A stretch of 40,590 bases of DNA, from positions 1-40,590 of IMG/VR virus record IMGVR_UViG_3300013116_000020. One strand, given 5' to 3'. This document shows positions 645 to 24,907 of the stretch, piece after piece; position 1 is the first letter of the stretch, and each line of letters opens with the position of its first letter. The translations under genes were made by a program, and so were the position numbers. The stretch comes from a virus. The notes under the pieces were generated by a model. It saw only the letters and a program-made list of their open reading frames with translations. It was not told the DNA's origin and searched no databases.

Positions 645-3221
645 ATGCCTGTTGGATTTCAAACTGGAGTGGACATGACCAATGCTGCGTTGAACCGTAT
701 GCGTTCTGGTGGTGGTGGTAGTAAAATGTCCAAGCGTGAGAAGAAGTTTATGGACGAGCAGATTAAAAATCTTCGTCAGGAAAGGAAGTTTGACAAGAAG
801 GACAGGAAGGAAGCAGCGAGAAAGCGGGAACTACTCGAACCAAATGAGCTTGAGGCATTAGAAAGAGATGAAGCTAGGTCTGCGATAAAGGGGAAAATCC
901 AAGAAAACAGAAAGCAGAAATACCTAAACAAGCAGAAGAAGTTGGAAAATGAGAGGGCTGCAGAAAAGCTCAAAGCAGACCAAGCCGCAGGGGTATTCCG
1001 TGCAGAGGCCGACGAGAAAGCTGAAGGATTTAGGAATAAATTATGGGAGAGTCAGCAGAAAAGAGCCGCAAGAGAAGAATTTCGCGCCCCATACCACGAA
1101 GTACAGCAAGCTCTTGTGAAGGGCCAGCAGGAGATCGACGCGAAGAATGCAGATACAGAAAACAAGAGGGCGATGACGGCCCATCAAAAAGCCCAGACGG
1201 CAACGATAGTAGAAAATAATAAAACGCTTCACGAAAGAAATCAGGCAGACATAGACTACAAGCTTGCACAGACCGAAGAAATCGCTGCCGGTATCGAACA
1301 GACCTTAAGTGAAACCGCCCGAAAAGAACAAGACGCCAAAACCAAAACAGAATCCCTTTCGCTTTTAAATGATGGGCTTGGCGTAGCAACTTGGATGATG
1401 TCTATGGTTCCCCACGCGGGCGATCCCGAAGCAGCTATAGCGGCTATCCGCGAGAATGTTTTATCGCTTCACTCTTCTGCTGCAGCCTTGGGGCCAGAAC
1501 AACTCAAGGTGGTTGAGACCTTCATGTCTAACCTTAAAACGATGGAGACTGATGTTAAAGATAGCATACTCCACAAAGAAAGGCAGAAAATTAAAGGCCG
1601 CGAGGAAGCCATTTCTGTCCAGCTTGAAGCTAAGTCAAAAGCTAATCCTGCATTTCGTAGGCAATATGATAGCTGGACTCCAGAGATGAAGAGAGAGCAT
1701 GACGTTACTGCTTACGTTCGTGAAAAGATAAACGCAACTGGCAATGTCCACATGAATCAGTTAATGAATGACCCTGCCAGAAAAGGTATGTTCATTAAGT
1801 ACAAGCTCCATAATGATCCTAACCAGAGGTGGGCTATGGACGCTAAGGGCAATCAGCTTAAAACGAAGGATGGGCAACTGGTTCCAAATTTAATCATTGA
1901 TGAGGATGCAACCTTTGCCGCCCTGAACGCAACCCTTGCCCAGTATAAGGCTATGGGGCCGCTTCCGAGAAGTAAAACCCAATCCTCCTTAGCAGGGAGG
2001 GAAGAAATTCCCGCAACCTCCAGCCCTGTAGTTCCAGTCGCCGGAGCCGCGTTACCGCCGCCCAAGCCGATCAGGCTAGAAACTGACACCAACACGGTAG
2101 CAACAGAGGGCACTCCGCATCCTTGGGGTGAAACGGCTTGGCAGGATTATCGACTTGCCCAAAATGCGCCATCAACAGCGGCAGAACTTCTTTCCTCGAT
2201 GGAGGGCGGTGCTGGGGAGCATGACCTATGGCTGGCACAGCAGGGTGCGCTTGAGGCATTGAGTTTGGCAGACCAGCAAAGGCTTGCTCAATGGACGAAT
2301 CCATCACTCCCCGCTAACCTACAACCTTCTCCAACCGGAGGCCCACCTGCCCACCAAACAAACCCGCCCACGCACCTATCCCCACCAACGCCAACCATTC
2401 ATATACCGGGCCACCACCAAACAATGCCACCGCCAACCGGCCAACCGCCAACCGGCCAACCGCCCGCTGGACAACCAACGGCCCCAACGGGACAACAACC
2501 GGCCCCTACTCCGGCCCCAACGGCCCCGACCCAAACTCAAAGCCAGCAAGCAATTCCTAAGAGGATGAGTGGTGTAACCATTGCTGGAACGGGCGGGAAT
2601 TCAAGCCGACCCTTTGATGCCACGACAATGCACGCTGCAATAGTTAAACGCGCAGGAGGAAACCAGCCGACGATGGCCGCAGAAGTTATTGAGTTTATGG
2701 GTGAAGTCGGCATAGAAATTGATAAAGGATCAACGGATGAGGCAATCAATGCAGCTAAACTTATGGCTCGCACCAATGTCGAAGGATCATACGGGGCTAA
2801 TCAACTCATGTCTGACAATTTACGACCAATGGACGATGCGACCAAGAAACTGGCACCAAGATTTAAGGGCAGCTTGATAGGATCAATTAGGAAAACCTTG
2901 TTCGGTGATACTGAGTTTGGCGGCAGGGACGTAGATGTTGACAAGCTGGAAAGTGCCCTTAAAGGTAACATTGGCGTCCTTTCAAGGGGGGATAAAAAGG
3001 GATACGGAAAGAGTGCGCTGAAAACTAGGACAGTCACAAACTTATGGGACAAGCCAGCCGAGGATTGGCCGTCAAAAATATACCTTCCAATGGAAAATGG
3101 GGATACTGACGATTCCGACGTAATTCAATGGACGCCCGAAAAAGTTAAAACCTTTAAGCGCAGGGTGGAATCATGGAAGAAGTGGAAAGCCTTCAAGGAT
3201 AAAATCGACAAGATCAAGTAA
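645..3221 (+). CDS. Large coiled-coil/proline-rich internal virion protein
   Basis: An 858-residue protein that starts at ATG 645 after an AAGGAA ribosome binding site. Residues about 25-245 are highly charged and rich in Lys, Glu, Gln and Ala, as in a long coiled coil. Residues about 550-640 are a Pro/Gln/Thr-rich linker with PTGQPP-type repeats, and the C-terminal third is globular and Lys-rich. No enzymatic motif was recognised. It sits between the junction gene and the 2805-residue gene, with a TAATG overlap to the latter, so these are probably made together and packaged as internal virion (ejection) proteins. The long helix would suit a core or trans-envelope conduit, but that is inference. 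Confidence 0.6.
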   Translation: MPVGFQTGVDMTNAALNRMRSGGGGSKMSKREKKFMDEQIKNLRQERKFDKKDRKEAARKRELLEPNELEALERDEARSAIKGKIQENRKQKYLNKQKKLENERAAEKLKADQAAGVFRAEADEKAEGFRNKLWESQQKRAAREEFRAPYHEVQQALVKGQQEIDAKNADTENKRAMTAHQKAQTATIVENNKTLHERNQADIDYKLAQTEEIAAGIEQTLSETARKEQDAKTKTESLSLLNDGLGVATWMMSMVPHAGDPEAAIAAIRENVLSLHSSAAALGPEQLKVVETFMSNLKTMETDVKDSILHKERQKIKGREEAISVQLEAKSKANPAFRRQYDSWTPEMKREHDVTAYVREKINATGNVHMNQLMNDPARKGMFIKYKLHNDPNQRWAMDAKGNQLKTKDGQLVPNLIIDEDATFAALNATLAQYKAMGPLPRSKTQSSLAGREEIPATSSPVVPVAGAALPPPKPIRLETDTNTVATEGTPHPWGETAWQDYRLAQNAPSTAAELLSSMEGGAGEHDLWLAQQGALEALSLADQQRLAQWTNPSLPANLQPSPTGGPPAHQTNPPTHLSPPTPTIHIPGHHQTMPPPTGQPPTGQPPAGQPTAPTGQQPAPTPAPTAPTQTQSQQAIPKRMSGVTIAGTGGNSSRPFDATTMHAAIVKRAGGNQPTMAAEVIEFMGEVGIEIDKGSTDEAINAAKLMARTNVEGSYGANQLMSDNLRPMDDATKKLAPRFKGSLIGSIRKTLFGDTEFGGRDVDVDKLESALKGNIGVLSRGDKKGYGKSALKTRTVTNLWDKPAEDWPSKIYLPMENGDTDDSDVIQWTPEKVKTFKRRVESWKKWKAFKDKIDKIK

Positions 3222-6200
3222 TGAACGGATCATACATATCCAACTATCGCGCTCTCAATCCCTCTGCCACTCAGGGAAAGACAGACCTTGAGATCGCCTT
3301 AGCACTACTTGCCGCTGACCCCACTCTGGCTCTTAGGGTTCCTGAGATTGGAAGGCTAAAGAAGCAAGCCGATGATAGAGAAAGCATACGGTCTGGTGCA
3401 GCCTACGGTCAAAACATTGCAGCGAGTAACATTAACGCTACGGCACAAAAGGCCCAGCAGCAGTTAGGTGAAAGAGGCTGGATTGAGAGGGCGATTACTG
3501 ACCCCACAAAGCGCGGCCTTTTAATGGCGGAACAAGCTGACCTGCTGATGAATGATCTTCAGATCGGCAAAGGTCTTACCCGCGAGAAGGTTAGGAAGCT
3601 AACTGAAATCCGCGACAAGATGGATGCTATTAGGGCTTCCCCAGAGTTCAGAGAGTTCCAAGAGGCTGAAGGATTTAAGGAGGGCTGGTCTGAGTTTTGG
3701 GGATGGTCGGAAACCCCCACTATCATTTCTGAAGTAGTTACCGAATCTATGTCGGCACTGCTTAGTTATGGTGCTGAAAAGATTTTTGGTGGTGCTGCGG
3801 CGGGCGCGGGTACTGGTGCTGCATTAGGTGCGGCTGGTGGCCCCGTTGCTCCCGCTACTGCCACTGCTGGTGCTGTCGCTGGTGCTGGCTACGGTGCTAT
3901 GGCCGGACTCGGACTGACATCTTACGGTCTGGCTGCTTCATCAAAGTATATGCAAGCCCTTGAGGAGACGGTTGGCTCCGAGGTAATGGATAACCCAGAC
4001 CTTCTCTTTGAGGCGATGAAAGACCCAGAGATTCATAAGAAGGCTAATGCTAAGGCAAAGAAGTATGGTGTCCCCATTGCCGCCATTGACACTATCTCGG
4101 CTGGAATGGCTGGTCGCTCTATAGCTTGGGGAAGGAAGCTGTCGAGTTCGGCATACACAAAAGCATCTAAGATTCCCGCCGAAAGCCTACTACAGCAAAC
4201 AGCGAAGCAGGGACTACTCGGCACCGCAAAGGCTGCACCCAAAGCAGTGCCCCTAGGATTCCAAATGGCGATGGGCAGCAGCGGTGAAACACTGGGCCAG
4301 TTGTCCTCTGAAGGTAAGGTTGAGAACTGGAAAGATGTTTTCATTGAGGGCATTGCTGAACTTGGTATGGCCCCATTCGAGATGTCTGCCTCCAAGATAG
4401 GCGAGGCTATGACTCCTGATATGCACAAGGCGTTGAATGATCGCATCAGGATAAAAAGAAAACAGGGAGTAACTTCCGATGAGCAGAAGGAGTCGATTGA
4501 TGGATTTGTCAAGGAGGGCACTCTAACTGCACAGCAAGCTGAAATCTACAAGGATCATGTGGACTCAGTTTACACAGCAGAGTTTGAGGGGAAAACACCA
4601 CCTGAAGAAGAGGGGGCCAAGGGCGGTATGTCCAAGAAGGATGCCGCTGAAATTGTTAATGCGTTTATTCGTGGGGAAATAACAGAGGAAGGGTTTGCTG
4701 TTCGAGCTTCCGAAACTGAGGGGTCTGAGCCAGTAAGAGAAGAGTTCATCGTTGCCCCCCGTAATGTAAGCATTGAGAGGTTTAAAAAGCTAGTAGCAGA
4801 AGATGCTAAGTCTGGCGAAGATAAGGCTGGTGAATACGCGAAGAAGAACAATATAGTAATAAGAGAATTAACTAAGGAAGAGAACAGGCAACTCTCCAAT
4901 GAAGGGCTTAAATTAGAGGCCGTCAGAGAGGGAGGGTACAAGCTGGATACTGATGGCGTTATCGGTACTGAACCTGACCGGCCCAGAAATGTCGGAGATA
5001 AGAGTCCAGAGGAAATTAAGGCTGGGGCAGCAGAGGCCAAAGAAAAGTCGGCCAGCAACCGATCCTTCAGGATATTCTCCCAGCACGGGATAACGGAACC
5101 CAATCCAAGTTTAGAAAGTCTTTTTGGTGAAGGCCGAGACGAGCAGCTTTCTGCGGTAGAAAGTATCATCCAAACTACCGATGATAGCGTGACCAAATCC
5201 GATATGAAGGATGAGGTTGCTGCGCTTGGAGACTTACTGAGTCCGAGGGAGCGGGATTTAAGTCTGGCATTCATTGACAATCAACAGTTTGACACCACTC
5301 CCGATGACCTGCCATTTGCGGAGTGGAGCGCGGCGTCACTTGATGAAACTGGATTCCTTATTCGCAGTCAGGCAGAGGAGGGCGCAGTTCAGCCGGAGGT
5401 TAAGGTCAAAGACCCTGATGCCATTGCTCCTAGCGAAATGACTTGGGAGGAGAACTGGAGGCGCAAGAATAATATCAGTCCTGACGAACCTCTCCCTGAC
5501 TATGCTAAGATTTTGATGGCTCAGGAGAGCAGATGGAGGGCGGACATGGCAGCCCAGCAGGAGGCGGCAACCAAAGCTCGCAAGGCTACCGAGACAATGC
5601 CCAAGAGCGATCTCCCTCTGTTTGGTGGTGCGCTGGATGTTGACCCCAGTGTTCAGTCCGAAAAGCAAAGTGCGTCCAAGTCGATTGACCAAGCCTCTTT
5701 CGATAAAAAGAAGATGGCCGAACTTAGGTCGAGAGAGTCTGAGATTTTCAATAGAATTTATTTCACCCCGCAATCCATTCGCTTGGGCGGCTTGTTTGGT
5801 GATGAGGTTATTCCCGCTGAAGGCAATGTCGGTGTTGAAGTTACTGACGCTGAGAGAAGTGCGCTTAAAAAGGAACTGGTTAGCATTGAGGATCAGATAG
5901 TTTCTCTCGGCGGAAGGATAGACCCAACCGGCACACAGGCATCAGGAGTCCACCCGATATACAACAAGGAAATAACCAATGAACTTACCGTGGAGGACTT
6001 TGGCCTGTTTGCTGTCAAAAACGAAAAACACCACAGAACCGGAGAGAAGATTAGCCGACTAGACATTTGGCGAATGACTGCACTCAGCGCGGCCAGACAT
6101 TACGCCAACATCTTTGAAGCCCCCCCGCTGCAACAACCCATAGAGGACGTTGCTTGGGACGCTTTCACTGTGGCAGTTCAAAAGTTTTACGAAAGAATAC

Positions 6201-9200
6201 AGAACCATAAGGAAAGGGGTCGCCCTGACATAATGGACTTGGGTGCGGTTGGCGATCTATACGGATGGAGCGGAAAGAAAGTAATCTGGAGTAGAATTAA
6301 AGACGCTGCCGATTCTCAGGGAAGTGAACTCCGAAGAATTACACCGCCGCAGGGTAGGCACGACAGGAAGAAGGGCAGGACGATTCAGGGTGAACACACT
6401 AGGATGGGCAGGGATTGGATGGCCCCCAGAACCTTGGGTATTGCTGAGAGGATTTCTGAAGCTGCGGAAGAGATTGCGAATGATTACTTAGAGTCAGTTG
6501 AGCTTGGCGGCGAAAGCCAGATGGTTCCAAAGACCGTTGAGGGTGGCGACCCAGTTCCCATTGTTGGAGTTACCGAGCCAACGGGTTCAACGCTTAGAAC
6601 ACCTGAATCCATAAGATTGGTAGAGGAGGCAAAAGACCAACTAGCCAAGTTCATATCTGATTTTATGGACAGGGTTATGTCCAAGGGGTTCACGCAGAAA
6701 GACGCCCCAGCATGGACAGCAGGAGCATTTGAGCGGGAGGTGTTCGAGACTATCCTACTTCAAGCAACGGCTAACGCAATAAGGGTTCGGAACAGGGCTA
6801 ACCGAAACCTAATCGGAAAGCGCAGGAAGCTGAATAGTGTAAAGGGTAGGGTTCGTAGAATAAGGGCTACACTGGGGCATCTCCACGGAAAGAAGCTGGA
6901 TCGAGTTCTAAGATTCTTCACCCCAGAACTGAAAGCTGTAAGGGATGAAGATGCTTTCGGTGGATGGACAGTAGAGACGATTAGGTTGGTTCAGGAGACT
7001 CTAAGGGAGCAAGGGGTATATCCTGAAGATGCTGATATAAACATAAAAGTACAGCAAAGCGAAGGCGGCAAAGCAACTACAGCAAACCTAAAAGATTTTA
7101 TTGGTGAGTTACGGGCGCAGAACAACATCCTTTCCCAAGAGATTAAGAAACTAGAGAAGCAAATAGCCAAGGCGGAGGCACAGCCAGACTTAGCCACCAG
7201 AGGCTTTAGGCTTCCTGAGTCCAAGGCTGAGGCGGGCGCACCGAGAAGTGTTCCCAAGGCTATTCAGAAACTTCTTAATGATTACAACAAGCAGCGTGAG
7301 GCGATGGAGCTTGCCCCTCTGGAAATGCCTAAGAGGTTTGTCAGTGAGTATATGCTTGGGGACAAGAAGAACAAGAGCAGTGCCCACAACATCATGCTTA
7401 AAAACATGGACGCTGTTCTGAGGGAGATGGAGCTTTGGGGCAAGTGGGACATGGATGAGGTTGCGGCTAACATGGAACTCGTTGATCGCACATTCGCTGA
7501 GGATTCGGTTGAGCAAGTTGGCGATCTACTGGACAATCATCCTCTTACCGCAGAGGGCAGGGGGACTCACACTGTTTCCGAAGCTATTGATAAGGTGCTT
7601 GCCGCCAATCCAAAACTGAAGGGTACTTACAGTGATTCAGTAATTAACTTCACCAAGAGTATCGCGGATAGGCTAGGCATAGGAATACACTTGGCAGAGA
7701 TTAAGCACACTCGCACCAAAGCTGACGGGACTAGCGAGACTAAGTATAGGGCTGCTGTTTATCTTAGCTCAACAGACCAGATTGCAGTGGATCATCGGGC
7801 GGGCGAACTGGGCGGCGATCTGTGGAATGCCGAGGTGCTTCTTAAATCTCTAATCGAGGAGACGATTCACGCAGTAGCGGTAAACGGCATAATGAATGAC
7901 CACGACCTAAGCAAGGAGGCGAAGAGTCTGTACCAAGACGCCAAGGAGGCATGGGAGGGCGAGATGGCTCAGGCCCAGCAAACCATTGATAAGTCTGAGC
8001 TTGGCAGTGGCGATGAAATGATTAACGCTGAAATCGCTAAGAACAAGCTGGACGAATTAAGGAGCTTTAGTTACGCGTTCTCTAATCATTGGGAGTTTCT
8101 AGCTCACGGACTCTATCAGGTTGACCTACAGAAATGGCTTAACAGTCGCGGCAGGAAAGCAGGGATTGCAACGAGTTGGTGGAACAGATTCAAGGATATG
8201 ATAATGCGGGCGTTGGATTCCTTTGGGGAGACGATTGAAGCTGGGTCATATCTGGCCGAAGTTCTCGACATGAATGCCAAGGGGTTAGCCGAGCGGTTGG
8301 ATTGGCAGAAAAGTGCTGATGCTACGAATGCTGATCCTAATACTATTGAAGGCAGATTTACTGAGCCATCCTCGCAGAATTGGAAGGGCAATGACGTTGT
8401 TCTAACACAGTTCAACCTAAAGTATGACACCAATCTGCTTGAGACGATGGACATTGAACATCAAGGGAGAACAATCCATAAGGGCATCAAGGTTCTAAAC
8501 CAAAATCCGGAGTCAGCCAATAAGCCAGCAAAGTCCATCGAGGAGAAATGGGCACCGATTCACAAAGCAAATGAGGATGCTCAAGGCGATAGTATGCTAT
8601 TTGCTGAGGGTGACTTCACACCAGAGACTAGCGGTAAGGAGACACTGGAAGGAATCAAGTCGAAGATTGAAACGCCCGAAGGCAGGGAAGGTGTTATCCG
8701 TTCTGAGATGTCGATGTATGAGAAGTTCAGGGAGAAGTTTATTACCTCCGGTGCTATACTCGATACATTCCAAAGCGCAGTTTTCAAGGCACTTAACATT
8801 GCCGGTAAGACTAGGGTTGCACTTTCTGAATTGTTCGAGCTTCAAGCTGGCAGTCCGGTTAAGGCAGATCATCGCACTAATAACTTCATGCTGCGGATAC
8901 ATGACAAGATCGGCGGCTCATCTAAGAACGAGAGCAACTTCAATGTCTACGCTTTAATCAGGCGCATCGAGGATCGCATAACCCATGATGACGATCCGAA
9001 CTTGGAAGCCAAGATAGATGAACTGATGGCGAACATGGATTCCGAATCAGGTGCATGGACGGGTACGGAGGAGCAGAAACTTGATCTAATAAATCTCATC
9101 ACAAAGTCCAAGGAGGTGGGGGATTTTAAGAAGCTGGCTGATCTTCCCAAGCTGGGCCTTGCGCTTGATGAGTTTGTGAACGAGATTAACGATCCTAACT

Positions 9201-11638
9201 TAATCAGGTTTGTTCGAGACGAGGATGGTGAGATCGTTAGAGCTAATGGAGTTGCTAGAACTGAAGGAGCTTTTGAGGACGCAATCGGCGTTTACCAAGA
9301 GGAGATGGCATCCGGACTGTATGACTTGTATCGTGCTGATATTATCTCAGGAACCTCGTACAATAGAATTAGCAGAAGCTCATCGTTCTATATGCCGTTC
9401 TACGTTGTTAAGTATTTCAACCAAGACCCCAAGGATACATTCGGAGAGTTCATAAGGGGAATCAAGACGGAGGACTTTGGTTTGATCTCTGCCTTGGATG
9501 CCGCACAGTTCAAGCTATACAACACTCAGCTAAGGATTGACCGTAACGCATTCATGCAGGAGCTTGAGCGGTTCCGAACTGACTTCGATCCAGATGAGAC
9601 GTTCATGCGTAAGACCAAGACTCTTGATGAGAGGGTTATGCCGTCGAACATGAAGCCAGTTAAGTGGCACGAAAACGGAAAGAACAGATACCTATGGATT
9701 GACGAGGATGTTGCTGATGTTCTGACTAGGTTTGATCCCGTATCCACCAGCATGACTTATGACGTTATGAAGCGGGCTGGTGACATATTTAAGATGGGTG
9801 CAACCGGCGTTAATGTTTTCTTCCAAGCTGGCAATATGCTCCTACTAGACCCAGTTCGTTTACTCACCACATCCAAGGGAGGGTTGCGGGCTATGGACAA
9901 GGGGCTGAATCCATTTGTTCTAGCCATGCAGTACCTTCGGGCTATAGGTGCTTCCAGTTGGGCCAACCTCGCCCCCAACTCTGTTAAGAATTTAATACGG
10001 CGTGTGCGTCCAGACTTCGGAAGAGATGCTGATGCCCTGTATGATGAGTTCATTAACAGTGGTGCTGCTGGTTCCACCATCGCTGAATACTTGGGCAAGG
10101 CTACCGCAATCAAAGACCCGATCACTAGGTACAACCGCAAGAGCAAACTAAACTGGATGCTTGCCAAGGCTAATCAAGTGGGCAAGGCGATGGAGCAGAC
10201 TGCTAAACTTGTGGGCCTACAACGCATGAAGGTTTTTGAGGGGATTGATGATCTTGCTGACAGGATTGACAGTGCCACGGGGGCCAAGAAGGTTGCGTTG
10301 CAGAATGAAATGAAGGATAGGATGCGGGCCATCTCGGTTGAGATTCGTAACTTTGCTGGTTCACCTGACTTCATGCGTAAAGGTAAGTTCACCGAGAACG
10401 AAGCATTGAACGTGTTGTTCCTGTTCTTTAACGCACGGGTGCAGGGTGTTGAGCGTGACTTGAATAGATTGTCCAAGGTTTTCTCAAGCAACCCTCAAGA
10501 CAGGAAGCTGGGTGCTGGGGTTATGCTGAAGATGACTGCCTTTGCTGCCATGCCGACTGCTATTGCTTGGGCACTTAACCGCAGGGACGAAGATCGTGAA
10601 AGGGATTACGCTGAGGTTAGTGATGAAGAGAAGAAGCGTTACTTTATGATCCCATTGGACAGCTTCTTTGAGCATCCTTATATCGAAGGCAAGATGGTGC
10701 GTGACTATATCCGCATTCCTCGCCGTGAATCATTCGGCCTGTTCTCTTACACAATAGAGAAGGGGCTGGATCATATGTACGATAAAGACCCTGCTGCGGT
10801 TAGCGAGATTCTAACTCACTGGGCTGAGTCCACGTTCCCGATTAACATTCACGGGATACCTGAAGGTGATATTGGCAAGGGTATTGAGAGCATGGCATCC
10901 AACCTTAACCCGATACTCCGTGCCCCAGCCGAACTGATTGGCAATCGAAACTTCTTTAGAAGGAAGCCCATCGTGCCCATTAGTATGCAGCGTTCCGACC
11001 CAAGCGAGCAGTATTACAATACCACTCCGGAAATCTATAAGGGATACGGAATCTCTCCGCTGAAGATTAAGCACACCCTAGAGGCATTGACTGCTGGCGG
11101 AATAACTCAGTTCCTACCGCCGAAGGATGTTGGTGATGGTGGCGTGGGCCGACGGATTGCATCCACACCATTGATCTCCCGTCTGGCTCGCAGCACATTC
11201 TTGGCTGAGGATGAGATCACTGAGATCATGGATGATGCCGACATGATGGATGCCACTGCTAGGGTAATCAGGCGAAGGGCAGTGAGTAAGTTTATGACTG
11301 ACACCCGTGGCTTGAGTATTCAGGACAGGGTTCGGGCTATCCCACCGGCTACGAATAATGATGAGCGTTTAAGAAATGAGGGAATCATCCGAAGGTTGAG
11401 AGAGATTGCTCTCGGGTTGGACGATGATGAAATCAGAATGAAGAACTCCACGGTTAATGTTAGATCATCCGTGATAGTTAGCAGAATACAGGATATGACT
11501 CCTGCTGAAGTTAAGGTCTACCTGACAGACCTCGCAAATAAGAGAATCTTAACAAGGGACGTTGGTCGTGATCTTGCCTTGAAACTCCATGCTCGCGGAG
11601 AAAGTATCCACGATTATCTGCGAGAGCCTGTCAGGTAG
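3221..11638 (+). CDS. Giant polyvalent internal virion protein with degenerate zincin-like motif
   Basis: A 2805-residue protein, 21% of the genome, starting at a TAATG overlap with the preceding gene. Residues about 185-240 are a Gly/Ala-rich, membrane-like stretch. Around residue 1545 the sequence LIEETIHAV resembles a zincin HExxH helix with the first His replaced by Glu (E1546, E1547, H1550). An EFLAHGL motif follows about 75 residues later, as in phage polyvalent-protein metallopeptidase-like domains. Around residues 2180-2230, KMGATGVNVFFQAGN matches the style of the C-terminal domain of phage large polyvalent proteins (LPD38-like, from memory). Such proteins are carried in the virion and ejected with the DNA. 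The position at the end of the structural arm agrees. Other parts are charged, helical and unassigned. Confidence 0.7.
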   Translation: MNGSYISNYRALNPSATQGKTDLEIALALLAADPTLALRVPEIGRLKKQADDRESIRSGAAYGQNIAASNINATAQKAQQQLGERGWIERAITDPTKRGLLMAEQADLLMNDLQIGKGLTREKVRKLTEIRDKMDAIRASPEFREFQEAEGFKEGWSEFWGWSETPTIISEVVTESMSALLSYGAEKIFGGAAAGAGTGAALGAAGGPVAPATATAGAVAGAGYGAMAGLGLTSYGLAASSKYMQALEETVGSEVMDNPDLLFEAMKDPEIHKKANAKAKKYGVPIAAIDTISAGMAGRSIAWGRKLSSSAYTKASKIPAESLLQQTAKQGLLGTAKAAPKAVPLGFQMAMGSSGETLGQLSSEGKVENWKDVFIEGIAELGMAPFEMSASKIGEAMTPDMHKALNDRIRIKRKQGVTSDEQKESIDGFVKEGTLTAQQAEIYKDHVDSVYTAEFEGKTPPEEEGAKGGMSKKDAAEIVNAFIRGEITEEGFAVRASETEGSEPVREEFIVAPRNVSIERFKKLVAEDAKSGEDKAGEYAKKNNIVIRELTKEENRQLSNEGLKLEAVREGGYKLDTDGVIGTEPDRPRNVGDKSPEEIKAGAAEAKEKSASNRSFRIFSQHGITEPNPSLESLFGEGRDEQLSAVESIIQTTDDSVTKSDMKDEVAALGDLLSPRERDLSLAFIDNQQFDTTPDDLPFAEWSAASLDETGFLIRSQAEEGAVQPEVKVKDPDAIAPSEMTWEENWRRKNNISPDEPLPDYAKILMAQESRWRADMAAQQEAATKARKATETMPKSDLPLFGGALDVDPSVQSEKQSASKSIDQASFDKKKMAELRSRESEIFNRIYFTPQSIRLGGLFGDEVIPAEGNVGVEVTDAERSALKKELVSIEDQIVSLGGRIDPTGTQASGVHPIYNKEITNELTVEDFGLFAVKNEKHHRTGEKISRLDIWRMTALSAARHYANIFEAPPLQQPIEDVAWDAFTVAVQKFYERIQNHKERGRPDIMDLGAVGDLYGWSGKKVIWSRIKDAADSQGSELRRITPPQGRHDRKKGRTIQGEHTRMGRDWMAPRTLGIAERISEAAEEIANDYLESVELGGESQMVPKTVEGGDPVPIVGVTEPTGSTLRTPESIRLVEEAKDQLAKFISDFMDRVMSKGFTQKDAPAWTAGAFEREVFETILLQATANAIRVRNRANRNLIGKRRKLNSVKGRVRRIRATLGHLHGKKLDRVLRFFTPELKAVRDEDAFGGWTVETIRLVQETLREQGVYPEDADINIKVQQSEGGKATTANLKDFIGELRAQNNILSQEIKKLEKQIAKAEAQPDLATRGFRLPESKAEAGAPRSVPKAIQKLLNDYNKQREAMELAPLEMPKRFVSEYMLGDKKNKSSAHNIMLKNMDAVLREMELWGKWDMDEVAANMELVDRTFAEDSVEQVGDLLDNHPLTAEGRGTHTVSEAIDKVLAANPKLKGTYSDSVINFTKSIADRLGIGIHLAEIKHTRTKADGTSETKYRAAVYLSSTDQIAVDHRAGELGGDLWNAEVLLKSLIEETIHAVAVNGIMNDHDLSKEAKSLYQDAKEAWEGEMAQAQQTIDKSELGSGDEMINAEIAKNKLDELRSFSYAFSNHWEFLAHGLYQVDLQKWLNSRGRKAGIATSWWNRFKDMIMRALDSFGETIEAGSYLAEVLDMNAKGLAERLDWQKSADATNADPNTIEGRFTEPSSQNWKGNDVVLTQFNLKYDTNLLETMDIEHQGRTIHKGIKVLNQNPESANKPAKSIEEKWAPIHKANEDAQGDSMLFAEGDFTPETSGKETLEGIKSKIETPEGREGVIRSEMSMYEKFREKFITSGAILDTFQSAVFKALNIAGKTRVALSELFELQAGSPVKADHRTNNFMLRIHDKIGGSSKNESNFNVYALIRRIEDRITHDDDPNLEAKIDELMANMDSESGAWTGTEEQKLDLINLITKSKEVGDFKKLADLPKLGLALDEFVNEINDPNLIRFVRDEDGEIVRANGVARTEGAFEDAIGVYQEEMASGLYDLYRADIISGTSYNRISRSSSFYMPFYVVKYFNQDPKDTFGEFIRGIKTEDFGLISALDAAQFKLYNTQLRIDRNAFMQELERFRTDFDPDETFMRKTKTLDERVMPSNMKPVKWHENGKNRYLWIDEDVADVLTRFDPVSTSMTYDVMKRAGDIFKMGATGVNVFFQAGNMLLLDPVRLLTTSKGGLRAMDKGLNPFVLAMQYLRAIGASSWANLAPNSVKNLIRRVRPDFGRDADALYDEFINSGAAGSTIAEYLGKATAIKDPITRYNRKSKLNWMLAKANQVGKAMEQTAKLVGLQRMKVFEGIDDLADRIDSATGAKKVALQNEMKDRMRAISVEIRNFAGSPDFMRKGKFTENEALNVLFLFFNARVQGVERDLNRLSKVFSSNPQDRKLGAGVMLKMTAFAAMPTAIAWALNRRDEDRERDYAEVSDEEKKRYFMIPLDSFFEHPYIEGKMVRDYIRIPRRESFGLFSYTIEKGLDHMYDKDPAAVSEILTHWAESTFPINIHGIPEGDIGKGIESMASNLNPILRAPAELIGNRNFFRRKPIVPISMQRSDPSEQYYNTTPEIYKGYGISPLKIKHTLEALTAGGITQFLPPKDVGDGGVGRRIASTPLISRLARSTFLAEDEITEIMDDADMMDATARVIRRRAVSKFMTDTRGLSIQDRVRAIPPATNNDERLRNEGIIRRLREIALGLDDDEIRMKNSTVNVRSSVIVSRIQDMTPAEVKVYLTDLANKRILTRDVGRDLALKLHARGESIHDYLREPVR

Positions 11639-11642
11639 GTTG

Positions 11643-12422
11643 TTAGGGTTTAGTCGGGTCTAGGTTTTTAATCATCTCCCGAATCTCCTTTATCTTTTTA
11701 GCTAGTGCTTTCTTCTCTTCGGTCTTGTCGTTTGGATGCCACTCTCTGAGTTGAGCTAACTCGTCAGTCAGAGTTTTCTTGTGATGCTCCAAAGCCCACA
11801 GACGTTTCTCGTATGGCTGATTGCTGCCAGTAGCAGACGCCGCACCACCAGTAGACCTCGGCGGGAATATGCCCTGCCAGCCTTTGGCTATGGTTGTCTC
11901 TATAGCAGATATGGCGACTGTCTCGCCGCCCCATTCAGCCATCTCTTTCCACATTCGGGATACGGACATTGACTTCAGCTTCTTGAAGCCACTTAGTCTG
12001 CGATACTTTTCATACTCTTCCCAAGCTATCTTGAACTCAGGTGTATCAAGTTCGGGTGGTACTGTTAGTTCTTCGTACTCATCGTTACGTTTCTCCCAGT
12101 AGTCTACCCGTTTTCTCGCGGCATCTTCGATCTTGGTATTGACCGACTGCCATTTGTCCCAGCCCTTTATTTCACCTCTCTCATCTATCCATCCCACATC
12201 ATTTCTGATGCGTTCAACTATGGCATCGAATCGTTCGGTGTCTGCTGTACCATCCTCCTTGTATATCCCAAGGGAATCAACGACCCCCTCCTTTTCTATT
12301 TTGGATAACTCCTTCATAGCGGGGGAGGTTCGCTTCCAGCAGTCGGATTTGATCCATTCCCATACGGCGCAACTTGCACAGTCACGCTTCTGGAGATAGA
12401 CCATTTCCATATCACCCATCAT
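11643..12422 (-). CDS. Replisome-organiser / replication-like protein
   Basis: The start chosen at 12422 gives 259 residues and overlaps the DnaA-like gene by 11 bp (ATGATGGGTGA). A longer frame reaches ATG 12464, and ATGs at 12410 and 12404 are alternatives. The stretch from about DTPEFKIAWEEYEKYR to AIETTIAKGWQGIF resembles the C-terminal region of many phage replication or replisome-organiser proteins, in which a Trp-rich helical module ends in a GWQG(I/L)F motif. The C-terminus is a Lys/Glu-rich helix. A Cys-rich stretch (CASCAVWEWIKSDCW) lies near the N-terminus. As the last gene of the leftward arm, beside a DnaA-type DNA-binding protein, it may load host helicase (inference). Confidence 0.5.
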   Translation of the reverse strand: MMGDMEMVYLQKRDCASCAVWEWIKSDCWKRTSPAMKELSKIEKEGVVDSLGIYKEDGTADTERFDAIVERIRNDVGWIDERGEIKGWDKWQSVNTKIEDAARKRVDYWEKRNDEYEELTVPPELDTPEFKIAWEEYEKYRRLSGFKKLKSMSVSRMWKEMAEWGGETVAISAIETTIAKGWQGIFPPRSTGGAASATGSNQPYEKRLWALEHHKKTLTDELAQLREWHPNDKTEEKKALAKKIKEIREMIKNLDPTKP

Positions 12423-12840
12423 GTAGACCGAATTCCTGTACCATACTGTCGGGGTCTTTCTCATAGGCTTTATACCTTTCTCTCACTCTTTTGTAGACCT
12501 GCTTGAACCGGCGGAACGCAGACGAATCATCTTCAAGTCGTTCATTGACTCTGGACAATCCGTTATGTATTGCGCCGTGATCTTTTCCGAAGCATCTACC
12601 TAGCCCAACAAGTGTGAACTCATTGGTTTCCATGCAGATATGATACGCTATGAATCTAGCTTCTACTTGTTCCTCGGTGCGGCCTCTGCCGACCACTCTC
12701 GATGGCGGAACTCCGGTAACGTGACTCGCTGCACATACAGCACGGTCAACGATCTCCTGTTCCGACATTGTAGGTTCTCTTGGTGTATTGTCTATGCCGA
12801 ACCGTTTCTCAGCATAACTGACATTAGACTCCTCGCTCAT
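12412..12840 (-). CDS. Stand-alone DnaA domain IV (C-terminal DNA-binding) protein
   Basis: A 142-residue protein. Residues about 26-120 match the layout of bacterial DnaA domain IV: an N-terminal helical lead-in (EIVDRAVCAASHVTGVP), an Arg-rich stretch, a helix (ARFIAYHICMETNEF), then the turn and recognition helix with GKDHGAIHNGLSRV at 85-98. The last corresponds to the DnaA signature around R-D-H-T-T-V. The AAA+ ATPase domain of DnaA is absent, so the protein should bind DnaA-box-like DNA without ATP-driven assembly of its own. It could mark the phage origin, compete with host DnaA, or act as a repressor. A perfect DnaA box occurs at 20399-20407. No strong ribosome binding site precedes the start. 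Confidence 0.8.
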   Translation of the reverse strand: MSEESNVSYAEKRFGIDNTPREPTMSEQEIVDRAVCAASHVTGVPPSRVVGRGRTEEQVEARFIAYHICMETNEFTLVGLGRCFGKDHGAIHNGLSRVNERLEDDSSAFRRFKQVYKRVRERYKAYEKDPDSMVQEFGLHDG

Positions 12841-20196: not shown

Positions 20197-20233
20197 GATT
20201 AGATTCTGACCACTATATATATATAATCTAATC
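20197..20233. repeat. 9-bp inverted repeat around TATATATATAT
   Basis: GATTAGATT (20197-20205) and AATCTAATC (20225-20233) are perfect inverted copies around a 19-bp AT-rich centre. The right arm is also the first part of the NTCTA array. Confidence 0.7.
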
Positions 20234-20270
20234 TATTCTACTCTACTCTATTCTATTCTACTCTATTCTA
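20226..20270. repeat. NTCTA pentamer array, nine units (locus 1)
   Basis: Nine perfect head-to-tail NTCTA units, N being A,A,T,C,C,T,T,C,T, directly after an alternating TA run. It is followed by three TGGAGA boxes. The same order is found at 24377-24438. No protein is encoded here, so codon bias cannot explain it. Confidence 0.95.
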
Positions 20271-20282
20271 TAAAGAGAATAT

Positions 20283-20308
20283 TGGAGATTACTGGAGAAA
20301 ATTGGAGA
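20283..20308. repeat. Three TGGAGA boxes at 10-bp period (locus 1)
   Basis: TGGAGA begins at 20283, 20293 and 20303, exactly one helical turn apart, so proteins bound there would line up on one face of the DNA. The third box extends into the end of the zinc-knuckle gene. Confidence 0.9.
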
Positions 20309-20540
20309 TTGAATTCTGATAGAGGTTTTCCAGACGTTCAACACGGGTTTCTAACTCCCTTCTCAGGGTCACGTTCATCCTAAAATCAGAACGCAGACTG
20401 TGGATAACCTGACGCATAGCCTCTTTATCACCGGCCATCCTGTCTATGGATTGTGCTAGGTAATCCCTGTTCCCCATGCTAGGGCACACAATGGTTTCAT
20501 GATCCTTGCTCTCACATAAATTGCATTTCTTTGCTATCAT
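20289..20540 (-). CDS. CCHC zinc-knuckle coiled-coil protein
   Basis: An 83-residue protein with ribosome binding site AAAGGA. Residues 6-19 (CNLCESKDHETIVC) are C-x2-C-x4-H-x4-C, the spacing of a zinc knuckle that binds single-stranded nucleic acid in retroviral nucleocapsids. The rest is a probable coiled coil (LRRELETRVERLENLYQ) suited to oligomers. Its 3' end carries the third TGGAGA box, and the perfect DnaA box lies within its coding sequence. The phage may thus keep origin-like sites inside a gene for a nucleic-acid-binding protein. Its actual partner is unknown. Confidence 0.65.
   Translation of the reverse strand: MIAKKCNLCESKDHETIVCPSMGNRDYLAQSIDRMAGDKEAMRQVIHSLRSDFRMNVTLRRELETRVERLENLYQNSISNFLQ
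20399..20407. promoter_or_regulatory. Perfect DnaA box
   Basis: TGTGGATAA is the exact complement of the consensus DnaA box TTATCCACA. It lies 92 bp from the TGGAGA boxes and the NTCTA array. The phage encodes a DnaA domain IV protein. A 9-mer like this is expected about 0.6 times by chance in 40 kb, so the context matters more than the match. Confidence 0.6.
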
Positions 20541-20579: not shown

Positions 20580-20613
20580 GGGGAGCTACCCATATCTAAA
20601 TGGATAACTCCCC
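20580..20613 (-). terminator. Rho-independent terminator after the 20636-21388 gene
   Basis: On the minus strand GGGGAG (20613-20608) pairs with CTCCCC (20585-20580), with further ATCCAT/ATGGGT-type pairing inside, and TTTTT follows (20579-20575). It lies 22 bp past the stop codon and separates this gene from the zinc-knuckle gene. Confidence 0.85.
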
Positions 20614-20635: not shown

Positions 20636-21388
20636 CTACTCACTATCTGAATCCGCAGATTTTTGCGAACGCTTCCACTCACGATAGAGTGAACGCAACT
20701 CATCTTTTGTCATTTCATCGCCGTCAATAGTGACCGACGTGGATTTAACCTCAGCCGGTTTGACCATCTTAGAGATGAAACTGCCCTTTGTCTGGCGTTG
20801 CATGACGGTACGGAATCCTTGCTTGACCATTTCTTCCACATTTGCAGCACACTGAGGTTCCAGATTCAACATCGAAACACCACGGTGAACAAAGTTGTGG
20901 AGATTGGATTTATCCTTAGCACTCCAACGCTTCTCACCGTTTTTGTTCCAACGCATAACGGGAACCTCCTTCCTCAACTCATAATCATAACGAGTTTCGT
21001 CGGTAGCTTCCTCCTCAGCAACCTTGCCATCCTTATCAGGAGTAACCTTGCGGTGTGCAAGATCAAGATTGGTGAGCATTTTCCTCCACGCTTGTGGCTG
21101 GAATACCGGCGGGGCAGCTATGATTTCAAGCATTTCATCAGTAGGATTTGTGAACGACTTCGGCACATTGACCATTTCACGGCCATCACGCCAGTTCAGA
21201 ATCAGTTCACAAATATCCTTCGGGATAACAGTGTGATCCAACAGGCTTTCGATCTGGTCAACTTCCAATGACATCAGGCTGCCCTCATAAGTGGTGGCAA
21301 TCCATTCGCCATCTTTGTTCCGATCGTCCCTAGTAGACAACTGAGCTTGATTCGCTTTCTCTGCGGTTTCTTTAGTTTTAGTAGGCAT
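20636..21388 (-). CDS. Hypothetical acidic protein
   Basis: A 250-residue protein. The start at 21388 is chosen for a perfect AGGAGGG 4 bases before the ATG; the frame runs to 21451 without support. The middle has a helix-turn pattern (QIESLLDHTVIPKDICELIL), and the C-terminus is Lys/Glu/Ser-rich (ELRSLYREWKRSQKS). No family was recognised. It is the second gene after the divergent region, has its own strong ribosome binding site and is followed by a terminator. This suggests abundant early expression, perhaps as a host-takeover or DNA-associated protein (inference). Confidence 0.65.
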   Translation of the reverse strand: MPTKTKETAEKANQAQLSTRDDRNKDGEWIATTYEGSLMSLEVDQIESLLDHTVIPKDICELILNWRDGREMVNVPKSFTNPTDEMLEIIAAPPVFQPQAWRKMLTNLDLAHRKVTPDKDGKVAEEEATDETRYDYELRKEVPVMRWNKNGEKRWSAKDKSNLHNFVHRGVSMLNLEPQCAANVEEMVKQGFRTVMQRQTKGSFISKMVKPAEVKSTSVTIDGDEMTKDELRSLYREWKRSQKSADSDSE

Positions 21389-21473
21389 TACGCCCTCCTT
21401 TTCTACTGTTGTTACACGCTTCATGCGCGAATGGCCGTTGTGACCATCCAAGTGCCCCCGCAGATCGAGTTAT

Positions 21474-21806: not shown

Positions 21807-22128
21807 AATGATTTACCTTTCGGGTTATTAGTTATGATCCGCAGGGACACTTGGATGGCCACCGGCGGCATCAAGGCAATGGGTTATGACTTCCCCACAC
21901 CTTGCCGCCCGTGACCGCTCGCCCGTTACGGCAAGCACCTCCTAAGAGGCAATCCGGTTTACAACAATAGTTTTTCACGGAAACCAACGTGCCGCTCGAC
22001 TTCGGAAAGGTTCAGGATCGAACCCATAATGCCGAGAGAATCCCCGCCAGTTTGTTGACCAGCTGGATTCGCGGTTGACAGCCGCTCTCTGTAATAGTAT
22101 GTACGGAGTCAAAAAAAATAACTGAAAA
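21807..22128. other. Divergent promoter region between the two arms
   Basis: There are 322 bp without a credible gene between the leftward and rightward arms. GGCGGCA (21864-21870) can pair with TGCCGCC (21903-21909), while the overlapping CTTGCCG (21901-21907) can pair with CGGCAAG (21929-21935), so two hairpins exclude each other. A rightward promoter candidate lies at 22075-22103. A T-arm-like GGTTCGATCC near 22012-22025 does not form a tRNA. Confidence 0.6.
22075..22103 (+). promoter_or_regulatory. Candidate promoter for the structural arm
   Basis: A perfect TTGACA (22075-22080) is followed after 17 bp by TATGTA (22098-22103). A second GTTGAC lies exactly 21 bp upstream, and CCAGCTGG is between them, possibly an operator. 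The candidate ends 25 bp before the terminase small subunit gene. Confidence 0.45.
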
Positions 22129-22527
22129 ATGCCAAAGATTGCCCAACCAACCAAAATGCCACCGATTCCCGAGGCCTCAACCAACGCCTTAATCGAAGCA
22201 ATCCGCGATGGACTAAGCCTGCCATCCGCCTGCAAATTTACGGAGCTTTCGCTGCCTCAGGTTGAGAAATGGATTCGTATTTACCCCGCACTCAAAATGG
22301 CTGTGGAGAAGGCTGGAGCCGACCATGAGCATCGAATGATCCAATTAGCCGAGAATCACGCCGCCAAGGATGGGAAACTAGCCATAGCCATCCTCGAACG
22401 CCGCCACTCGCAATGGAATAAGACTGAGAAGCAGGAAGTTAAGCAGTCAGCCACCGGCACAGTGTCGCCCGAGCTTCTGAAGGCCCTCACCGCCGCCCCC
22501 GAACGAGTGAAACCCCAGCGAAACTGA
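22129..22527 (+). CDS. terS: Terminase small subunit
   Basis: A 132-residue protein directly before the large subunit. LIEAIRDGLSLPSACKFTEL and SLPQVEKWIRIYPALKMAVEKA give the helix-turn-helix and following helix of phage small terminases, which recognise the packaging site. A central coiled-coil segment (EHRMIQLAENHAAKDGKLAI) would build the ring, and the RRHSQWNKTEKQEV stretch is typical of the family. The C-terminal tail likely contacts TerL. No good ribosome binding site is present; GGAG lies 20 bases away. It is followed by an unusual C-tract spacer. Confidence 0.8.
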   Translation: MPKIAQPTKMPPIPEASTNALIEAIRDGLSLPSACKFTELSLPQVEKWIRIYPALKMAVEKAGADHEHRMIQLAENHAAKDGKLAIAILERRHSQWNKTEKQEVKQSATGTVSPELLKALTAAPERVKPQRN

Positions 22528-22530
22528 CTA

Positions 22531-22573
22531 CCCCCCTCCCCCCAAGTGGCCCCCCTATATAAATATACCCCCC
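22531..22573. repeat. Four C6 tracts between terminase genes (G-quadruplex/i-motif candidate)
   Basis: Exactly six Cs occur at 22531-22536, 22538-22543, 22550-22555 and 22568-22573, separated by 1, 6 and 12 bases, the last being TATATAAATATA. The minus strand thus has four G6 runs able to form a G-quadruplex. The region is non-coding and lies 25 bp before the large subunit start. Confidence 0.9.
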
Positions 22574-22597
22574 TCAAATTATCGGAGTACCAAAAAA

Positions 22598-24094
22598 GTG
22601 CCCCTTAGATTAAAGAAACCCCTGAGAAGTGCGAAAGTTTCGGCCAAAGTGGCTGAGGAAATACGAGGAACCGTCACCAAAAAGGGGGATAAGAAGCTGA
22701 GTAAGGCTGCATTAGTGCAGAGAGCGGCCTATTTGGAGAACTTCCCTGAGATGTTTTTGGGCATGAAGCCGTATGCGTGGCAGAAACGCGTTCTAAGCGA
22801 TCTTAATTTCAAGGAGAGTAAAGTGGCCATGAAGGCTGCAAACGGCTCAGGAAAGACCGCTGTGGTCGCAGCAAGCGCGGTTCTGTGGCACATGATGAGG
22901 TTCCCGCACAGTTTGACGATTACGACTGCTGGGGTATGGCGTCAGGTGGAGGATCAGTTATGGCCCAGCTTGCGTAAGTATGTTTCTAGGTTAGGCGATG
23001 GGTGGCGTGTGACTAGCAGTGAGATTGAGCATCAGAATGGTTCGAGGGCTATTGGGTTTAGTACGAATGATGCTGGTAAGTTTGAGGGTTGGCATAGGCA
23101 GGGGCCGAGCGACAACCTTATGATGATCGTGGATGAGGCCAAGACTGTGCCTGATGCTATTTACGAGGCTATTGCGCGGTGTCAGCCTAGTCGGTTGCTA
23201 GTGATGTCAAGTCCCGGCGGGCCGTCCGGTGCGTTCTACAAAGCCTTTACTAAGGAGGCGAGCTTTTGGGATACGCATAGTGTGACTGCATTTGATTGCC
23301 CGCATATACCGCAGAGTTGGATTGATGAGCAGACGGAGAAGTGGGGTATTGAGCATCCGTTGGTGCGTTCGATGATTTACGGTGAGTTCATGGACTTGGG
23401 TTCTGAGAACCTTGTGATTCCGTTTAACTCTGTGCAGTTCTGTTACAGCAACCCTCCGAGCAAGAAGAGTGGGGGGAAGATAGCCTTTTGCGACTTTGCT
23501 GCTGGTGGGGATGAGAACGTGCTGTGTGTACGGGAGGGCAACGAGGTATTACCCCTTAAATGCTGGAAGGAGCGGAACACTATGGACACGGTGGGGCGGT
23601 TCATTATGGAGTTCCGTAAATATGGGTTGGATGCCTGTAATGTTTACGCTGATGCTGGTGGCCTTGGAATACCGATGTGTGATGCTTTGGCTGAAGCGGG
23701 GTGGACGGTCAATAGGGTTAACAATGGGGCAAGGGCTAACAATGATCGGTACTACGGGAACAGGGGTGCGGAGATGTGGTATGAGTCTGCCCGTATGATT
23801 GAGAAGGGTGAAATACGTTTACCCGAAGATGACCTTTTAGTTGAGCAGCTTACAACGCGATTGGGTAAGACGAACAGCAAGGGTAAGTTAATGCTTGAGA
23901 GCAAGGACGATATGCGATCCAGAGGGGTTAGTTCACCTGACCGTGCCGATGCTTTAGTTGGGTGTCTCGCTTGTGGGGGTATTAACAACCTTGCTGTTCG
24001 CACACCTCGCAAGAGCCTGTTTGATTTGATATGGCCTGAAGAGGACGAAGGGTTCGGTACTCAGTACGGCATTAAGGGAATGGATACGGGGTGA
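22598..24094 (+). CDS. terL: Terminase large subunit
   Basis: A 498-residue protein starting at GTG 22598, with GGAG 10 bases upstream. The ATPase domain has Walker A AANGSGKT (80-87) and Walker B MMIVDEA (D179, E180). The C-terminal nuclease has FCDFAAGGDEN (D299), a conserved YADAGGLGIP block near residue 350 and a final DRADALVG with Asp, as in the RNase H-like phage terminase nuclease. It powers translocation of DNA into the procapsid and cuts it. Its stop overlaps the next gene as GTGA. Confidence 0.95.
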   Translation: MPLRLKKPLRSAKVSAKVAEEIRGTVTKKGDKKLSKAALVQRAAYLENFPEMFLGMKPYAWQKRVLSDLNFKESKVAMKAANGSGKTAVVAASAVLWHMMRFPHSLTITTAGVWRQVEDQLWPSLRKYVSRLGDGWRVTSSEIEHQNGSRAIGFSTNDAGKFEGWHRQGPSDNLMMIVDEAKTVPDAIYEAIARCQPSRLLVMSSPGGPSGAFYKAFTKEASFWDTHSVTAFDCPHIPQSWIDEQTEKWGIEHPLVRSMIYGEFMDLGSENLVIPFNSVQFCYSNPPSKKSGGKIAFCDFAAGGDENVLCVREGNEVLPLKCWKERNTMDTVGRFIMEFRKYGLDACNVYADAGGLGIPMCDALAEAGWTVNRVNNGARANNDRYYGNRGAEMWYESARMIEKGEIRLPEDDLLVEQLTTRLGKTNSKGKLMLESKDDMRSRGVSSPDRADALVGCLACGGINNLAVRTPRKSLFDLIWPEEDEGFGTQYGIKGMDTG

Positions 24095-24369
24095 GCGGTA
24101 AGGTACGCAGCCATAATTTCAGCACCGGAAAGTTCTCTATTTACATTGAGGACATAGAGGGGCTGTGCTGTGACCCCGATGCCCCGCCCGACGATGAGAA
24201 GTCCATCACTATAAGCCCAAGGCTGAAAGGCCGAAGAAGGTTGGAGGTTATCATACATGAATGCCTCCATGCCGAGTACCCCTCGATAAAAGATAACCCT
24301 GAAGAAGAGTGGGTAGACCAAGCTGCCATAAACATCTCAAAGCTCCTTTGGCGAATGGGATATAGATAA
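24091..24369 (+). CDS. Small zincin-like (HExxH) phage protein
   Basis: A 92-residue protein with GTG start overlapping the terminase stop. Its helix LEVIIHECLHAEY carries HExxH (H56-E57-C58-L59-H60), and the ending ISKLLWRMGYR matches small phage proteins with an HE-x-x-H-A helix and an LLWRLGYR end, often near terminase genes. The motif suggests a zinc-dependent peptidase or a structural zinc site; no substrate is known. It is cotranscribed with the terminase, and a second NTCTA array follows directly after its stop. Confidence 0.65.
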   Translation: MSGKVRSHNFSTGKFSIYIEDIEGLCCDPDAPPDDEKSITISPRLKGRRRLEVIIHECLHAEYPSIKDNPEEEWVDQAAINISKLLWRMGYR

Positions 24370-24376
24370 TAATGTA

Positions 24377-24406
24377 ATCTACTCTACTCTACTCTAATCT
24401 AATCTA
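24377..24406. repeat. NTCTA pentamer array, six units (locus 2)
   Basis: Six perfect NTCTA units (N = A,C,C,C,A,A) followed by TTCTC. It shares a 16-base identical stretch (TAATCTAATCTATTCT) with locus 1, in the same orientation on the plus strand although the flanking genes have opposite directions. Confidence 0.9.
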
Positions 24407-24413
24407 TTCTCAC

Positions 24414-24438
24414 CGGAGTATTTTGGAGGAACTTGGAG
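24414..24438. repeat. Three (C/T)GGAG boxes at 10-bp period (locus 2)
   Basis: CGGAG at 24414 and TGGAG at 24424 and 24434 repeat the one-turn spacing of locus 1. It thus copies both the array and the boxes, with a shorter spacer between them. Confidence 0.85.
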
Positions 24439-24502
24439 AAAGATAAATAAGATTGAAACTGTGCGGTTTTGCTAATAGGTATATTGAGGTGCGGGGCGCA
24501 TG

Positions 24503-24573: not shown

Positions 24574-24735
24574 ATGGGCTGGATAGAAGGAATTTTAAGT
24601 GTGGCTGGTGCGGGGCTTGGGATTTGGCTCTGGTGGCTGAACAACCGTGCTGCTACAAAGAAAGAAATAAAGGAACAGAATGCAGCTAAAGTTCATAGCG
24701 ATACTGCTGACATTATTGACGACGAGTTGCGGTAG
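24574..24735 (+). CDS. Small membrane protein (possible inner spanin or holin)
   Basis: A 53-residue protein. Residues about 4-22 (IEGILSVAGAGLGIWLWWL) are one transmembrane helix, followed by a charged tail (TKKEIKEQNAAKVHSDTAD). The next gene begins inside it in another frame and has a lipoprotein-like signal, the arrangement of overlapping inner and outer spanin genes. At 53 residues it is shorter than known inner spanins, so it could instead be a holin-like or accessory membrane protein. No ribosome binding site is obvious, but a structured leader precedes it. Confidence 0.5.
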   Translation: MGWIEGILSVAGAGLGIWLWWLNNRAATKKEIKEQNAAKVHSDTADIIDDELR

Positions 24736-24907
24736 CCTGAAACCACTGCCCATTACCCGATTGCCAGAGGGTAACGTGAAGAGGTTAATGGAGCTACCTG
24801 AGTTCAGTAACGTCAAGGATTCAAGCCCAGAGGTAAAGCGTTGGGCCAAAGAGGCACTTCACACAGTCAACGATCTGGAATTTAACATAAGGAAAGAAGA
24901 TGAGTAG
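24680..24907 (+). CDS. Lipoprotein (possible outer spanin)
   Basis: A 75-residue protein with AAGGAA just upstream. The N-terminus (MQLKFIAILLTLLTTSCGS) is a signal peptide ending in a lipobox-like TTSC. The mature part (KPLPITRLPEGNVKRLMEL) is short and Pro-containing, followed by a charged helix (SPEVKRWAKEALHTVND). It overlaps the small membrane protein gene by 56 bp and the portal gene by 8 bp. A lipid-anchored outer partner of the upstream protein is the likely role; a structural tail lipoprotein is possible. Confidence 0.55.
   Translation: MQLKFIAILLTLLTTSCGSLKPLPITRLPEGNVKRLMELPEFSNVKDSSPEVKRWAKEALHTVNDLEFNIRKEDE

Follow-up and report, generated by a model that had tools for sequence, protein, structure and literature searches.

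The element, its second copy and their surroundings

The window analysed in this study is the whole 40,590-base IMG/VR record of a marine virus of bacteria. On its plus strand, the element that we term copy A starts with a TATA run, TATATATATATA (20214–20225), which forms the far end of the array; most of the copies described below have an AT-rich start. The run is followed by nine perfect NTCTA pentamers (20226–20270), the proposed unwinding element, and by a row of GAG/TGGAGA boxes phased at 10 bp (20274–20309), the proposed initiator-binding sites. The TGGAGA boxes at 20283, 20293 and 20303 are spaced by exactly 10 bp, and a degenerate AGAG at 20274 is in phase with them. An array of this kind is far above chance, with 14 matches to TCTANTCTANTCTA at no more than one mismatch against a mean of 0.13 in shuffled sequences. 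Two minus-strand ORFs, of 83 and 193 aa, lie on either side of copy A. An initial annotation of this DNA had listed the NTCTA units, the TGGAGA boxes and a DnaA box, and our coordinates for all of them agree with it; however, it described a single element, while two copies are present.

The overlooked copy B (24360–24441, 82 nt) lies 4141 bp from copy A in direct orientation and is 74% identical to it, in register. It has an AT-rich array start (24353–24376), six perfect NTCTA pentamers (24377–24406) and three GGAG boxes phased at 10 bp (24415, 24425 and 24435; 24415–24440), all on the plus strand, and is located just 3′ of a 92-aa ORF that follows terL and ahead of the small ORFs preceding the portal gene. 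The interval between A and B contains a 271-aa gene, a 110-aa gene, a divergent intergenic region, and terS and terL (22129–24094, plus strand).

Several further features were seen in this neighbourhood. The 271-aa protein (20636–21451, minus strand) has an LxHRK motif and no Pfam, PHROG or fold match; it is kept in the close group of relatives and in the related genome G064, and ORFs resembling it adjoin arrays in two other viral loci (L041 and L060). A strong terminator-like hairpin on the minus strand (20580–20613; 14 pairs, TTTTT tail) follows the 271-aa gene and immediately precedes the 83-aa ORF and copy A. The 110-aa gene, which adjoins the divergent intergenic region, is flanked by a 27-nt imperfect inverted repeat (85%; 21440–21466 and 21836–21862). 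Past copy B, two small overlapping ORFs (24574–24907), one resembling a short membrane protein and the other a lipoprotein, are conserved in the close group, G064 and G076, and are possible lysis genes.

Relatives with a TerL that is 79–85% identical include contigs of 38.6–40.4 kb, the ends of which fall at differing points of a common gene order. The genome is therefore circular or circularly permuted, and the window is probably near-complete. The closest named phages by terminase are Akkermansia phages (38% identity), which makes a verrucomicrobial host plausible.

Conservation, register and duplex stability

The full pattern, three TCTA followed by two TGGAG boxes 10 bp apart, was found in ten viral contigs, all ten of which encode relatives of the terminase. 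Genomes that cover the whole region have two copies, 4–5 kb apart, which flank terS–terL in every lineage examined and are in direct orientation in the close group, G064 and G076, and inverted in G023, G024 and G038. In an alignment of 24 copies, T and TA recur every 5 bp (T.TA) and are nearly invariant over most of the array. Arrays are 6 to 10 units long, with their length changing only by 5-bp steps, and 73 of the 83 units are perfect in A copies and 53 of 78 in B copies. The first box is found 3, 8 or 13 bases past the array and is followed by one box per 10 bp, exceptions being many B copies, in which the last step is 9, and the A copy of G050, in which the boxes are degenerate. As the array changes in 5-bp steps and the boxes begin at +3, +8 or +13, the phase between array and boxes is constant modulo 5. 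Deeper relatives have other period-5 arrays (AAACC, TTTTG, GGTNN), which we rejected as forms of the same element, being without boxes and resembling leader or simple repeats. A GGTNN pentamer tract of about 240 bp in G022 (L156:4470–4710), a deeper relative with a gene for a DnaA domain IV protein, could be a different origin-like array.

Duplex stability was calculated as nearest-neighbour free energy in 60-bp windows. The least stable such window of the contig starts at 20214, in copy A, and the second least stable at 24353, in copy B. The same order, A first and B second, was obtained for G001, G002, G003, G005, G008, G064 and G076, giving eight genomes with the window, although these rankings are not independent because the genomes are related to one another. 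By these ranks, the proposed unwinding element beside the boxes is of low stability, as in bipartite origins. In G004, the top six unstable windows include A only, and the elements of G023, G024 and G038 rank lower in the list.

Promoters are AT-rich too, and the element might instead be an operator or enhancer pair, in which a regulator would coat the phased boxes of A and B and control the leftward early and rightward late gene clusters, perhaps by looping of the intervening 4–5 kb. In its favour, two long gene clusters begin at A and B, which have the divergent intergenic region between them; AT-rich DNA with helically phased boxes would suit operators as well, and TATAAT-like starts are present. 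However, a search for sigma-70-like promoters gave no match in A or B and none above chance in the region, and neither the −35/−10 hexamers nor the fixed orientation to a gene that would mark a sigma-70 promoter with its operator was found; relative to transcription, B is not oriented alike in all lineages, being inverted in G023, G024 and G038. Moreover, a 5-bp array that is the least stable stretch of the genome is not expected of an operator, and the 83- and 193-aa ORFs next to A turn over among relatives while the element stays. We therefore consider this explanation unlikely.

A reading of the element as RNA was also rejected: there is no Rfam match in the window, and for the stretch downstream of B, folding is not better than for shuffled sequences (z −0.38). 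GC skew, which the initial annotation had put forward as a check on where replication starts, follows gene strand.

Similar arrays in other viruses

Scanning for five NTCTA units in tandem yielded 91 stretches, many of which are simple repeats. Of 48 array-bearing records from this five-unit scan, only three had DnaA_C, and all three have GGAG boxes. Several unrelated viruses have NTCTA arrays with other boxes (TGTCAC, GTATAC, CGGTAC, GCATTGC, GGCGTC, CGACTATAAGA and GGTTGCGG), mostly in 11-bp phase. Among 53 distinct viral loci, 14 have 10/11-bp phasing (p<0.02) located 3′ of the TCTA strand (two of these being leftover pentamers) and 2 have it 5′; control lags on the 3′ side gave 11 loci at 8/9 bp and 5 at 12/13 bp, which are partly other simple repeats. 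As judged by eye, the box side abuts genes that match PHROG families of replication initiation or DnaD-like helicase loader proteins in L018, L027 and L064, and ORFs resembling helicase/primase or SSB are found on the side opposite the boxes in L018 and L064. Several viruses with phased boxes, L040 and L042 among them and perhaps also L031, have no replication gene nearby. In L015, L020, L025, L036 and related loci, an NTCTA array followed by phased TGTCAC boxes lies beside a DNA methyltransferase-like gene. No named phage with relatives of these other arrays was found. Bacterial counterparts were rejected as well: the pattern of three TCTA and three GGAG had no match in the genome collection, and a scan for five TCTA units gave at least 120 matches, of which those inspected were mainly simple repeats without phased boxes.

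One of these loci bears on packaging. The TGTCAC-type array of L020 lies, by eye, between TerS-like and TerL-like genes, and this keeps alive the proposal that A and B are pac sites, where a TerS ring would wrap the 10-bp-phased boxes and TerL would cut nearby. Both copies are close to terS, flanking terS–terL in the lineages examined, and the circularly permuted contig breaks of the relatives would fit headful packaging. An argument that TerS is non-homologous and hence not the binder was dropped, as a distant TerS has an HTH of the same type in the same place. On the other hand, two sites 4–5 kb apart, either direct or inverted, would be odd for directional packaging, the arrays of L018, L027 and L064 are found in replication modules instead, and strong duplex instability is not a requirement of pac. 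A packaging role thus seems quite improbable to us. Although partition sites resemble helically phased tandem boxes, we give hardly any weight to a centromere-like or nucleoid-type site for a small phage DNA-binding protein, or to another architectural role, as the gene content is of lytic type and no ParA/ParM/TubZ-type gene was found among the window proteins scanned (all but some of the small ORFs).

Candidate initiators and a model of two bipartite origins

The phage encodes two proteins that may act at such sites. The first is a 142-aa protein (12412–12840, minus strand) corresponding to DnaA domain IV, the DNA-binding domain, without the AAA+ domain, and is the candidate box-binding initiator. 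The domain had been recognized in the initial annotation, and its assignment is upheld by a Pfam match slightly under the curated cut-off (E=7e-7) and by a match of the family profile to PDB DnaA chains (E=1.9e-13). The second, a 273-aa replisome-organiser or O-like protein (11643–12464, minus strand), the gene start of which overlaps the gene for the first, is a candidate helicase recruiter. It matches PHROG O-like initiators weakly (E=6e-5), and among the nearest BFVD viral models to its predicted fold are phage replication proteins, a replisome organiser and Lin1244/Lin1753-like proteins, with E values of about 6e-5 to 6e-2 and modest TM-scores; no match to the fold was found in the PDB. 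Both genes are conserved in carriers of the element where the region is covered, including G024. Since deeper relatives retain the DnaA domain IV gene without the element, the link between this protein and the boxes is suggestive. Consistent with the earlier statement that the phage has no recognizable polymerase, a scan of the window proteins (again all but some of the small ORFs) detected neither a replicative polymerase nor a helicase. Genes for recombination proteins, namely an ERF annealing protein and an exonuclease, are encoded. A 2805-aa protein (3221–11638) has an LPD38 large-polyvalent-protein domain.

The perfect DnaA box, TGTGGATAA (20399–20407, plus strand), which had been regarded as an origin component, cannot be upheld as belonging to the element. 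The relatives do not keep it, and its frequency is at chance level: exact TTATNCACA occurs twice in 40.6 kb against about 1.2 expected by arithmetic, and with up to one mismatch there are 21 matches against 30 in shuffled sequences. The box is thus probably incidental. We also rejected the GGAG boxes as degenerate DnaA boxes, for while 7/9 matches exist, shuffled sequences equal the observed score 6–80% of the time. The element has neither the DnaA boxes of a DnaA-dependent (oriC-like) origin nor, as had been noted previously, the 3-base repeats and polarity of the DnaA-trio; the period is 5 and the TAG strand has the opposite polarity.

We consider it fairly probable that this dsDNA phage has two bipartite origins, A and B, each made up of initiator boxes and an unwinding element, in a layout like that of SPP1 oriL/oriR. 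Bipartite origins consist of initiator repeats and an adjoining DNA unwinding element, and plasmid iterons are usually helically phased (PMC5043065). The replicon-specific direct repeats of both A and B are phased at 10 bp, and a phage-encoded initiator and organiser are suggested by likeness in sequence and fold, weakly so for the organiser. Without the DnaA box, the origin-like reading of the initial annotation thus gains from the conserved fixed register, the instability, the DnaA domain IV and organiser-like proteins and the adjacency of replication genes in other viruses. We count against it the flanking of terS–terL, the position of the L020 array between TerS-like and TerL genes, the viruses with phased boxes but no replication gene nearby, the phasing at a control lag in 11 of the 53 loci, the chance-level likeness of the boxes to DnaA boxes, the deeper relatives with DnaA domain IV but no element, and the location of A and B, at some 8 and 12 kb from the initiator genes instead of in or beside them, as the arrays of L018, L027 and L064 are. 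Such proximity is not strictly defining, because SPP1 oriR is also far from gene 38.

In SPP1, gp38 binds two bipartite origins, of which oriR is located in the late region, and the late stage of replication depends on recombination (PMC6316719, PMC3485210). As in SPP1, there are two elements of direct repeats and AT-rich DNA per genome, together with recombination genes of the concatemer-making kind; the SPP1 origins, however, are 12–13 kb apart with oriL within the initiator gene (PMC6316719, PMC3485210), whereas the elements described here are 4–5 kb apart, flank terminase genes and come with a pentamer array and a DnaA domain IV protein. Like lambda ori, in which initiator repeats adjoin an AT-rich region, this phage has an initiator candidate that is O-like, if weakly by PHROG, in its 273-aa protein; unlike the 19-bp iterons within lambda O, its boxes are short, 10-bp-phased and distant from the initiator genes (PMC5043065). 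In ori2 of Vibrio cholerae chromosome 2, RctB binds (G/A)ATCA repeats (PMC10797057, PMC10316083). Pentamers are found in the unwinding element of ori2 and in the one proposed here, and those of ori2 are reportedly bound single-stranded by a non-AAA+, replicon-specific initiator (PMC10797057, PMC10316083); the pentamer and initiator family are different here, and single-strand binding is part of our model only. Short repeats beside initiator boxes are also found in the DnaA-trio/TnnT region of Bacillus oriC (PMC10201434, PMC10316083), although the period here is 5 and not the 3 bases of the trio (PMC10316083), the TAG strand has opposite polarity and no AAA+ DnaA is encoded. DnaD binds pairs of TnnT on single strands (PMC10201434). 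NTCTA gives TAnT, a TnnT, at every pentamer junction, each 5 nt on the T-rich strand, so that from its sequence the proposed unwinding region would have at least two 5′-TnnT-3′ on one strand, as in a DnaD recognition element. E. coli oriC has the same order of T-rich strand and then boxes, as confirmed from sequence.

According to our origin model, a phage initiator, most likely the DnaA domain IV protein acting together with the organiser-like protein of the overlapping gene, would bind the GGAG boxes in a row along one face of the helix and strain the neighbouring (NTCTA)n array. The array would then melt, and the exposed T-rich strand, with its TAnT per 5 nt, could be held by the organiser or the initiator while the host helicase and replisome are loaded; reading of this strand by the organiser is a model prompted by the TAnT spacing. 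We infer binding, melting and the start of replication at both A and B. Copy A, with more perfect pentamers and the lowest stability, would be the main origin. Copy B, which heads the late genes, would serve either as another origin or, in line with a proposal made for SPP1 oriR, as a fork barrier. The recombination proteins (ERF and exonuclease) would convert circles to concatemers for packaging. More tentatively, and with some doubt on our part, (NTCTA)n may represent an undescribed modular phage unwinding element, a 5-base array common to unrelated phages and combined in fixed register with phased boxes specific to each replicon, its pentamers being read single-stranded in 5-nt steps by organiser-type proteins; in this phage it would be duplicated as two origins, at which a DnaA domain IV devoid of AAA+ would act.

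To our knowledge, few phage origins have been mapped, and sequence rules for melting are known for a handful of replicons. If the model is correct, NTCTA pentamers in fixed 5/10-bp phase with boxes specific to the replicon would provide a short, searchable origin signature for uncultured phages, and would allow a test of whether stepwise single-strand recognition is found outside DnaA-trios, TnnT and RctB repeats. It would then also be instructive that a phage initiator can consist of the DNA-binding domain of DnaA without the ATPase.
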